Assembly: GCA_028278505.1 (NCBI GenBank)
Contig: JANQEG010000087.1
Span: 1 to 64,000 of the forward strand
Source: Rhodobiaceae bacterium
GTDB lineage: Bacteria; Pseudomonadota; Alphaproteobacteria; Rhizobiales; JAKPQE01
Direction of reading: 5' to 3'
Length of the DNA stretch: 64,000 bases
This document shows positions 49,729 through 57,747 of the stretch, piece after piece. The notes under the pieces were generated by a model. That model was not told the origin of the DNA. It saw only the letters and a program-made list of their open reading frames with translations, and searched no databases. A program made the position numbers and the translations under genes. Positions within the stretch are counted from its first letter, which is position 1. Every line of letters begins with the position of its first letter.

Positions 49729-49833
49729 ATCGGAAGGGCGTAAAATGAGGATTTGCTGATGGACGGGAAACGGCGGCGTGCGGGTGGCGGGTGCCGGTGG
49801 GCGAAACAATGGCAGGTCGGTACGGAAGAGGTT

Positions 49834-49916
49834 CGAACCCGAAGGGTTCGCAAGGCCGAACGGCCGTCGCGCGGTCAGCGCGCCCCCGCGGAGGTCATGA
49901 GCGAAGCGAATTGACC
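49834..49916 (+). repeat. Four-hairpin structured element, copy 1
   Basis: CGAACCC-GAA-GGGTTCG; GGCC-GAAC-GGCC; CGCGC-GGTCA-GCGCG; GGTCA-TGAGCGAAGCGAAT-TGACC. Confidence 0.8.
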
Positions 49917-49951
49917 GTGAGCGAAGTAATGGTGGGCAGGAAGGCAAAGGT

Positions 49952-49993
49952 TCAAAAAAAGCCCTGCCGAGCTTGTTGTCGCCATGGCAGGGC
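49952..49993 (-). terminator. Rho-independent terminator without an annotated upstream gene
   Basis: Minus strand GCCCTGCC-N17-GGCAGGGC-TTTTTTT. Confidence 0.75.
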
Positions 49994-50155
49994 CTGCCCC
50001 GAAGGGTCTTGAGGCTCAATGGGTGAACCCACGAGCAATCGGTACTAAGATACGCTTCAATCCTTAAATATCAAGTGATTAGCACTTGCTTTTCGCAACC
50101 GAGAAGATCGCGGGGCAGCGCGTTTGCGACCTATAGCCTTCGCTGACGCGGCGAA

Positions 50156-50281
50156 ACACGGCGCCGGCATACCGTGTCGAACGGGGCAATGGGTCCCCGC
50201 TTGCGCGAGGACGGTGGGTGTTGTTGTCGCTGGAGCACAAAACTTACACCTTCCCCGCGAAAGCGGGGAACCATTGGCGGC
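50156..50281. repeat. Tetraloop palindromic pair, convergent orientation
   Basis: GGCATACCGTGTCGAACGGGGCAATGGGTCCCCGC...GGTG then CACCTTCCCCGC-GAAA-GCGGGGAACCATTGGC. Confidence 0.8.
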
Positions 50282-50525
50282 GCCGAAATAATAAGCGTTC
50301 GCGGTGCTTACCGGAATCATCGAGGCGCGGATTGAAAAGACGGTATCGAACTGAACCGGGCAACAGTGTTGTGATGCGTTAAATAGTCGACGTGTTCTGA
50401 AAAAGACCGAACCGATAGTCCTCCTTCGCCCGCCCAACTACGCTGAAGCTTCAGCGGGCCGGGGCTTCGGAGGACACGCCTACGCCTATATCGCCTTCGG
50501 CTGGCGAAGCTGGCTAGCAGAAATT

Positions 50526-50608
50526 CGAGCCCGGAGGGCTCGCAAGCGCGAACGCGCGCCGGCCGGTCAGGCCGCCCCGTCGGAGCCGGTGAGCGAAGCG
50601 AACTCGGC
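50526..50608 (+). repeat. Four-hairpin structured element, copy 2
   Basis: CGAGCCC-GGA-GGGCTCG; GCGC-GAAC-GCGC; CGGCC-GGTCA-GGCCG; GCCGG-TGAGCGAAGCGAAC-TCGGC. Confidence 0.8.
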
Positions 50609-50769
50609 GTGAGACAGAAAAAGGTCGAAACTGAAGGGTTGGCCCGCTTTCGTTCCGCGCTTTCACTTCGTTACAGCGCAGTCACTACAGCGCGGCATCC
50701 GTTTCGCACGCTACATCGCTCATCGCGCTGTAGCGAAATTTTGCCTTTGGCAAAATTAGCGAAAGCGGA

Positions 50770-50845
50770 TGGTGGGCCCGGCAGGACTCGAACCTGCAAC
50801 CAGACCGTTATGAGCGGCCGGCTCTAACCATTGAGCTACGGGCCC
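50770..50845 (-). tRNA. tRNA with CAU anticodon, best read as tRNA-Ile2(CAU)
   Basis: Minus strand GGGCCCGTAGCTCAATGGTTAGAGCCGGCCGCTCATAACGGTCTGGTTGCAGGTTCGAGTCCTGCCGGGCCCACCA; full cloverleaf, CCA encoded. Confidence 0.95.
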
Positions 50846-50883: not shown

Positions 50884-51186
50884 CTATATCAATAGCGTTT
50901 CGCGGGCAAGGCGCTCGGCGTCATAGCTCGTCGCCCTGGCCCTCTCCTCTCTGAGGCTGTCGTGTTCACACATCTCAAAGCCGGATACGGCCACGACCTC
51001 GATCGATCGCCCGAGTGTGTCGAATTTCAGGAAATATTCCTGTTCGAACGTCGCCGAAGTGATGCGATGGTTGGTTGGCGCGACCTTGCCTTTGCCCACC
51101 TTTCCCGCGGAAGCGGGAATCCAATTATCCCGTCGATACGTTTTGCCATCGGCTATTGCGAATTGAAGAGTCGACCGACAAAACAA
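50884..51186 (-). pseudogene. ORF whose N-terminal part is repeat-derived; possible remnant
   Basis: ...NWIPASAGKVGKGKVAPTNH is translated palindromic element; TSATFEQEYFLKFDTLGRSIEVVAVSGFEMCEHDS... follows. Confidence 0.3.
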
Positions 51187-51240
51187 ATGCCAATAATGGC
51201 GGATTGGCCAATGGTTCCCCGCTTTCGCGGGGAAGGTGCG
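51094..51240. repeat. Tetraloop palindromic pair, divergent orientation
   Basis: TTCCCGC-GGAA-GCGGGAA near 51102-51119 and TTCCCCGC-TTTC-GCGGGGAA at 51215-51234. Confidence 0.8.
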
Positions 51241-56503: not shown

Positions 56504-57604
56504 ATGCCGGGAGGTCGTTCGTTGAAAGCTGCCGTCTGCCGGGAATTCGCCGGACCACTTCACATCGAAGAGGTCCACCTTGCCGATCCGGGCGTCGGCG
56601 AGGTGCGGGTCCGGATCAGGGCCTGCGCGATCTGCCATTCCGATATCGCCTTCATCGACGGCGCCTGGGGCGGCGATCTGCCCGCCGTCTTCGGCCATGA
56701 GGCGTCCGGGATCGTCGAGGCGGTCGGCAGCGGCGTCACCGATGTTGCGCCCGGCGATCCCGTGGCGGTGACGCTGGTGCGCGCCTGCGGCCGCTGCTCC
56801 TGCTGCGAGGCCGGCTATTACGGCTCGTGCGAAACCACGTTTCCGCTCGATGAGACGAGCCCGCTTCGCGGCGCCGACGGCGCGCCGATCGGCCACGGGC
56901 TCGGCACTGGCGCCTTTGCCGAGGCGGTCGTCGTCGACCGGGCGCAGATCGTGCCGATCGACGATGACATCGGCTTCGACACTGCCGCGCTGCTCGCCTG
57001 CGGCGTGATTACCGGCTATGGCGCGGTCGTCAACACGGCGGGGATTCGGGCCGGATCGCGCGTCGCCGTGGTCGGCACCGGCGGCGTCGGCCTCAACAGC
57101 GTGCAAGGGGCGGCGATTGCCGGGGCGGCGGCGGTCATCGCCATCGATCTTTCGGAGAGTAAGCGCGAGGCGGCGCGCCGGTTCGGGGCGACGCACACGA
57201 TCGACCCGCGCGCCCGCGATGTCGCCGCTGCCGTCCGCGCCGCAACCGGCGGCTGCGGCGCCGATGCCGTGTTCGTCACCGTCGGCGCGAAGGCGGCGTT
57301 CGATCGGGCTATCGACTTGCTGGCGCCGGGGGGCGCGGCGGTGATCGTCGGCATGCCGGCGAATGGCGTGATGTCGGATTATGATCCGGGCATGCTGGTC
57401 ACCCGGAGCCAGCGCATTCTCGGCTCGAAAATGGGCTCGTCAAACATCCACCAGGATATCCCGAAACTGATTGCGCTCTACCGGCAGGGCCGGCTGAAGC
57501 TCGACGAGCTGATCAGTGGCCGCTATCGCCTCGATCAGATCAATGACGCGATCGCCTCGGCGAAATCGGGCGAGGCGCTGCGCAATGTGGTGGTGATGGG
57601 GTGA
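56504..57604 (+). CDS. Zn-dependent alcohol dehydrogenase
   Basis: GHEASGIVEAVGSGV; structural-Zn CGRCSCCEAGYYGSC; VVGTGGVGLNSVQGA. Confidence 0.92.
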   Translation: MPGGRSLKAAVCREFAGPLHIEEVHLADPGVGEVRVRIRACAICHSDIAFIDGAWGGDLPAVFGHEASGIVEAVGSGVTDVAPGDPVAVTLVRACGRCSCCEAGYYGSCETTFPLDETSPLRGADGAPIGHGLGTGAFAEAVVVDRAQIVPIDDDIGFDTAALLACGVITGYGAVVNTAGIRAGSRVAVVGTGGVGLNSVQGAAIAGAAAVIAIDLSESKREAARRFGATHTIDPRARDVAAAVRAATGGCGADAVFVTVGAKAAFDRAIDLLAPGGAAVIVGMPANGVMSDYDPGMLVTRSQRILGSKMGSSNIHQDIPKLIALYRQGRLKLDELISGRYRLDQINDAIASAKSGEALRNVVVMG

Positions 57605-57608
57605 GGGG

Positions 57609-57747
57609 CCGGATTCCTTCCCCCCTTGTGGGGGAAGGTTAGGATGGGGGGTCAAGGAGAAAACGCGTGAGCGAAGCGAACGCAATTGATTTATTTATTC
57701 TTTTGACCCCCACCCCTGACCCCTCCCCACAAGGGGGAGGGGAAGCC
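57609..57747 (+). repeat. ~139-bp mosaic palindromic element, left copy
   Basis: CCGGATTCCTTCCCCCCTTGTGGGGGAAGGTTAGGATGGGGGGTCAAGG...AATTGATTTATTTATTCTTTTGACCCCCACCCCTGACCCC... Confidence 0.92.

Follow-up and report, generated by a model that had tools for sequence, protein, structure and literature searches.

What kind of element keeps its stems paired while their letters change, and does it pair as RNA or as DNA? This question is raised by two short repeats that lie beside a tRNA gene in the window, i.e. the whole stretch of 64,000 nucleotides analysed here, which is part of contig C113 of a 3.35-Mb draft genome. An earlier note on this sequence had described four hairpins in each repeat and compensatory changes in their stems, and had listed a structured ncRNA, an RNA-processing signal and the substrate of a structure-specific transposase as candidates.

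The two window copies and their relatives

The first copy (A1) spans positions 49831 to 49925 and the second (A2) positions 50523 to 50617, both with the minus strand as functional orientation; their covariance model matches score 116 bits (E 5.8e-21) and 115.6 bits (E 8e-21), respectively. The copies lie 692 nt apart on the same strand and are 75% identical over 95 nt without gaps (49827–49921 aligned to 50519–50613). The four hairpins described before are present in both copies, with all stems paired. Hairpin H1 reads CGAACCC-GAA-GGGTTCG in A1 (49834–49850), with a C-GAA-G triloop on the plus strand, and CGAGCCC-GGA-GGGCTCG in A2 (50526–50542). H2 is GGCC-GAAC-GGCC in A1 (49854–49865) and GCGC-GAAC-GCGC in A2 (50546–50557), and H3 is CGCGC-GGTCA-GCGCG (49868–49882) and CGGCC-GGTCA-GGCCG (50560–50574), respectively; in several other copies of the family the H3 loop holds additional inserted hairpins. 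H4 has the apex GAGCGAAGCGAA in both copies, on a stem GGTCA/TGACC in A1 and GCCGG/TCGGC in A2. A fifth stem, absent from the earlier note, encloses H4 across an internal loop GGA/GTGA (49887–49923 in A1, 50579–50615 in A2). It covaries as well, being CGC/GCG in A1 (49887–49889/49921–49923), GTC/GAC in A2 (50579–50581/50613–50615) and ATC/GAT in a further copy of the same genome on contig C95.

The array is headed by a tRNA gene with the anticodon CAT on the minus strand (50770–50845). ARAGORN calls it tRNA-Met (anticodon cat); a re-reading of this label as tRNA-Ile(CAU) is plausible, and the gene is referred to as tRNA-Ile below. Between its CCA end and A2 lies a repeat X (TCCGCTTTCGCTAATTTTGCC...; 50618–50769, minus strand). 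Along the minus strand, tRNA-Ile with its CCA end is followed by repeat X, A2, a stretch of about 590 bp, a short remnant GCCCACCA resembling a tRNA 3′ end (49930–49937, minus strand), TTAC, and A1. Given this order, A1 and A2 would most simply be members of one tRNA-linked array behind tRNA-Ile. The remnant precedes A1 by 4–5 nt in functional orientation, which equals the spacing at intact tRNA-element junctions, and may be a copy of the tRNA-Ile 3′ end that has been displaced (locus L070). The placement in the gap beside tRNA-Ile(CAU), described before, is not incidental, tRNA 3′ ends being a preferred position of the family (see below). Since the element lies downstream of tRNA-Ile on the strand of that tRNA, the informative strand is the one co-directional with the tRNA, opposite to the orientation in which the copies had been read.

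Other repeats are found in the same surroundings. Repeat X is placed exactly behind tRNA CCA ends; it recurs on C115 in truncated form and on contig C104 behind tRNA-Val, where a 12-nt copy of the tRNA-Val end (TCGCGCCCACCA) and then a second X come after it. Another short palindrome (CTTTCCCGCGRAAGCGGGAA) occurs at 50249–50275, 51100–51125 and 51218–51240 and recurs on C87. The motif GTGAGCGAAGCGAAC, which had been noticed to recur at 57.6 kb, does so at 57667, as the apical loop of a different palindromic repeat (57600–57740; TTCCTTCCCCC..GGGGGAAGG ... GACCCCCACCCC) that has a 15-mer loop in common with the element; a third copy at this site is ruled out. Relatives of this palindrome are found in the same genome at C21:19370, C113:66577 and C132:2959.

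BLAST with A1 in its own genome finds copies on C115 (a tandem pair), C87, C104 and C121, and a search for the H4 loop motif adds the C95 copy and a 3′ fragment on C115. A covariance model (R1) gives nine own-genome matches at E up to 1, and the family has at least 8 copies here. Run on this genome and 60 relatives, R1 finds matches in 24 of the 61 genomes, at 0–69 copies per genome (37 being without any), many of them in tandem arrays with a period of 80–105 nt. A second model (R2), built from 47 diverse copies, gives hits in 16 of 192 genomes from the whole class and in 8 of 150 from the whole phylum, all of them within Alphaproteobacteria. A pattern scan of named genomes finds the element in Mesorhizobium, Maricaulis, Methyloligella, Rhodobium orientis, Tepidamorphus, Neomegalonema, Hellea, Nitratireductor, Erythrobacter, Altererythrobacter, Sphingorhabdus and Phycosocius, among others; a match in one Panacagrimonas MAG may be contamination. 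The family is patchily distributed across Alphaproteobacteria, with hundreds of copies in other genomes.

One genome with 49 copies in total carries five of a divergent subtype within 1.1 kb, partly as inverted pairs (L046). Several draft contigs of Rhodobium orientis have an end that lies about 200 nt or less from an element (L101–L142), which suggests that the repeats break assemblies there. The core pattern is also present in 27 predicted viral contigs of IMG/VR (L269–L295), several with at least two copies, mostly at 70–83% GC.

No Rfam family matches the window elements at gathering score, and at E up to 5 only chance-level matches appear. Nor is the element described in the literature searched on tRNA-linked or palindromic repeats in Alphaproteobacteria. 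Against Rfam and this literature, the family is apparently undescribed; the 'Rhizobiales-1' motif (PMC2864571) is likewise without an Rfam entry.

Covariation of the stems

Six own-genome copies were aligned, three of them after removal of H3-loop inserts, with the structure set by hand. All 26 pairs form in each copy and 11 pairs are changed on both sides, a result reached by none of 500 shuffles; slide controls do not come close either. Among 146 copies from named genomes, 22 of the 26 pairs show double changes, and 94.9% of 3477 cells are paired, a percentage somewhat inflated by the fitting of this alignment to the model, whereas the six-copy result is independent of the model. Doubly changed cells number 689 in the 146 copies, versus 200 in shuffles and 53–96 in slid structures. 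The compensatory changes reported for A1 and A2 are hence real, and the claim that selection acts on the folded structure rather than on the sequence is strongly supported by the wider alignment. Loops, junctions and the order of hairpins are conserved across the class while the stems vary. The borders of the unit are sharp, since conservation extends from a tract of about five pyrimidines to the end of H1 and no further. The folding energies of A1 and A2, as RNA or as DNA, are no better than those of shuffles (z about +0.8 to −1.4); the case for structure therefore rests on covariation and not on stability. Integron attC sites, whose single, imperfect hairpin carries simple core sites and extrahelical bases, were considered as well and are ruled out by the four to five serial hairpins of the element.

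The type of mismatch in the stems bears on whether they pair as RNA or as DNA. A selected transcript would tolerate G-U pairs on its own strand, but not the mirror-image A-C. For a strict count, only pairs of H1–H3 within otherwise perfect helices were considered in 290 unique copies, on the strand used in the earlier note. G-U and A-C pairs stand at 36:32 in these stems, versus 17:1 in the acceptor stems of tRNAs from the same loci, a small control of 18 non-Watson-Crick transition-type pairs; the difference has a Fisher p of 0.0009 or 0.0003, depending on the strand. Strict counts on separate alignments likewise show parity; the copy sets used (A5, A6 and A7) overlap slightly, and the final counts come from unique sequences. 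This parity disfavours pairing at the level of RNA on either strand, and with it the proposals of a structured ncRNA or an RNA-processing signal. The stems thus appear, from their mismatches, to be maintained as folded DNA.

A GNA triloop closed by C-G is a type of stable DNA mini-hairpin, and d(GCGAAGC) is extraordinarily stable as such. On the strand of the earlier note, 63 of 105 H1 triloops are GNA, 62 of these closed by C-G, and the H4 half contains GCGNAGC in 157 of the 290 copies, exactly GCGAAGC in 88. Loops of this kind being common, they also point to DNA. The same kind of argument has been made in reverse for the STAXI motif, where UUCG loops favoured RNA (PMC2864571). The comparison of G-U with A-C is a simple and general test of covariation at DNA versus RNA level, and it is applicable to other orphan 'structured RNA' candidates.

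Placement behind gene ends, and signs of turnover and mobility

At loci with a tRNA, the border of the element typically lies 4–12 nt from the CCA end, and its working orientation is co-directional with the tRNA. Of 110 copies in three genomes, 17 are separated from a tRNA 3′ end by less than 20 nt; for 30 such an end lies within 500 nt, and 28 of those show the same geometry. In the named genomes a gap of 4–7 nt separates 31 copies from a tRNA 3′ end, and the geometry is shared by 47 of the 48 copies nearby; pooled, both samples give 75 of 78, although these counts are not fully independent, as tandem copies share one tRNA. In Rhodobium orientis 12 of 42 tRNA genes carry the element; most copies there lie away from tRNAs, a good many of them behind protein genes. 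Copies at protein genes typically start about 10 nt behind the stop codon. By composition-based ORF calls, 58 copies begin within 44 nt downstream of a same-sense stop codon and none at 45–60 nt, versus 28 at a comparable distance on the far side (54 versus 24 in exclusive cases, p 0.0009). The genes ahead of such copies, among which by eye we recognise the gyrA, typA, leuB, leuD, apt and serA types, are ordinary ones. Further copies lie 44–58 nt behind 23S rRNA, and in three genomes of one genus (L302, L303, L304) the 23S-5S spacers of both tandem rRNA operons examined, about 7.7–9.1 kb apart, contain the element.

Such placement is what would be expected of a structured RNA in the 3′ trailer of the upstream tRNA, rRNA or mRNA, co-transcribed with it in the orientation opposite to that of the earlier note and acting as terminator, stabiliser or guide for an RNase. 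This is the main rival to the reading as mobile DNA, against which the position behind RNA 3′ ends, the 23S-5S spacer included, has to be counted. The oriented spacing behind CCA ends and stop codons, the pyrimidine tract ahead of the element and the strong covariation all agree with a trailer, and the TLR RNAs rrA/B/F of E. coli are transcribed and bind Hfq and CsrA (PMC8144298). However, A-C mismatches in the stems are as common as G-U, H1 holds the register of a triloop and not of a UNCG tetraloop, the number and positions of copies differ between congeners, and 37 of the 61 genomes searched lack the element. Nor does it match a standard intrinsic terminator; only H1 of A2 is terminator-like, and the count of such cases is near chance. 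On balance, we regard a functional trailer as unlikely.

Comparison of related genomes points to movement. Mesorhizobium sp. N.Ca.ET.084.02.1 lacks both copies found at locus L151 of Mesorhizobium loti CJ3sym, the corresponding sites being empty. The flanks of the first site overlap by about 40–49 bp in the empty genome, so that the gene end (ending EQLRGLDRPL.N/V) is duplicated around the element; the empty allele has no pyrimidine tract, which at this site hence belongs to the element. The second site shows no clear target duplication. Both empty sites could also have arisen by precise loss, at the first one by recombination between the repeats. Direct repeats flank further copies: 17 nt of a tRNA-Ser end at L187, 23 nt including CCATTTTTC at L237 and 12 nt at L161. 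Repeats with a score of at least 10 surround 7.4% of single non-tRNA copies, versus 0.5% with shuffled flanks; around most copies no recognisable target duplication is present. A duplicated tRNA end is clear in a minority (L187, L161 and the displaced tRNA-Ile end in the window), while elsewhere degenerate tails ending in CCA are found.

Duplicated tRNA 3′ ends and gene ends around some copies, together with the 27 viral contigs, might point to integrases or islands that use such ends and leave attachment sites behind. Many different tRNAs and housekeeping genes are used, however, the units are only about 95 nt long and often in tandem, and blastn against plasmid and phage records gives no match to the element, which makes this origin extremely improbable.

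The proposed substrate of a structure-specific transposase fits better with the dispersal, the tandem arrays, the empty sites and the duplicated gene ends; the obvious candidate enzyme, a transposase of the RAYT/IS200 (Y1) type, is not consistently associated with the element. A REP/BIME system of the classical kind, mobilised by a RAYT (TnpA-REP) transposase that has since been lost in many lineages, would account for palindromic, dispersed repeats at gene 3′ ends with structure at DNA level, and the genome of the window has three Y1 (PF01797) transposase genes, e.g. L263 (G000:C69:21193–21555). Yet none of the contigs with these three genes carries an element, and PF01797 is absent from five genomes with 23 to 69 copies each (G001, G013, G018, G059, G060). 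The association of Y1 genes with the element is weak (9 of 24 carriers, 5 of 37 non-carriers). A RAYT origin is hence very unlikely in our view; no mobilising gene was found.

In the congeneric genomes G013 and G060, two orthologous tRNA-Leu genes each have a copy. The stems differ between the genomes, the two copies within each genome resemble each other, and a copy at a protein gene of one genome is missing in the other. From the sequences this looks like concerted evolution (homogenisation) combined with turnover, and retention at the orthologous tRNA genes could indicate a function. Likeness of copies at different tRNA-Leu genes within a genome is also what template switching (quasi-palindrome correction) with gene conversion would give, the covariation then being a by-product without selection on folding. 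Concerted, near-perfect changes of both arms with few intermediates, and the parity of G-U and A-C, agree with this. But class-wide conservation of loops, junctions and hairpin order alongside changing stems does not, and correction alone would not preserve the spacing and the loop bases along with all five stems; the explanation is highly improbable.

Taking together the family with its tandem arrays, the covariation with pairing of DNA type, the orientation and placement, the two empty sites and some duplicated gene ends, we consider the element to be probably a small mobile interspersed DNA repeat, similar to both REP and TLR repeats, that is aimed at gene 3′ ends and recognised as a folded single strand. 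A unit of about 95 nt with its short pyrimidine tract would be propagated and kept uniform as DNA. As a single strand it would form four to five hairpins, held in place by loops and junction bases that are conserved; an enzyme that recognises this folded strand may move the element, with the conserved loops as its recognition marks. Insertion would favour one orientation and occur immediately downstream of tRNA, rRNA and protein genes, at their 3′ ends; in some cases the gene end would also be copied to the far side of the element. It is conceivable, though rather doubtful, that such minimal elements travel as folded single strands throughout the class, and that machinery other than a RAYT or any known integrase aims them at tRNA CCA ends, 23S rRNA and stop codons.

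Comparison with known systems

The element is a common and strongly structured part of alphaproteobacterial genomes without description in Rfam or in the literature searched, and it can serve as a model of the way in which repeats target the 3′ ends of genes. Covarying helices are shared with the structured RNAs of Rfam, unlike which it has no family at gathering score. RIME, Bru-RS and other rhizobial mosaic repeats are palindromic intergenic repeats of about 100 bp in Rhizobiales, and the element is like them by description only.

Some REPs benefit their hosts by protection of 3′ ends, by termination or as sites for gyrase or IHF. Like REP/BIME repeats (PMC5082802), the element is short, palindromic, intergenic and dispersed, lies close behind stop codons and occurs in tandem or in clusters. 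Unlike them, it is a unit of five stems and about 95 nt with conserved loops and changing stems, it prefers tRNAs, and several carriers have no RAYT. Br-REP1 and Br-REP2 of Bradyrhizobium and Rhodopseudomonas are 3′-UTR repeats with several stem-loops and fast turnover (PMC5082802). They too are alphaproteobacterial repeats behind genes; their published consensus differs by eye, however, and they are not described as tRNA-linked.

The TLRs of E. coli comprise the tyrT repeats with the RttR/rtT RNA and the repeats rrA/rrB/rrF behind 5S rRNA; 18–19 bp of the tRNA 3′ end are duplicated at the far end of the unit, and their function has long been unknown (PMC8144298). The element resembles them in its position directly behind tRNA and rRNA 3′ ends in the same sense and in its tandem units; a minority of copies also share the duplication of the tRNA end. 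A search of the E. coli tyrT region with R2, limited to this locus, gives no match at E up to 10. In contrast to the TLRs, the element has another sequence and structure, also follows many protein genes, and is found class-wide with covariation at the level of DNA. The unexplained pattern of tRNA-linked repeats in E. coli is thereby extended to a second bacterial class and to protein genes.
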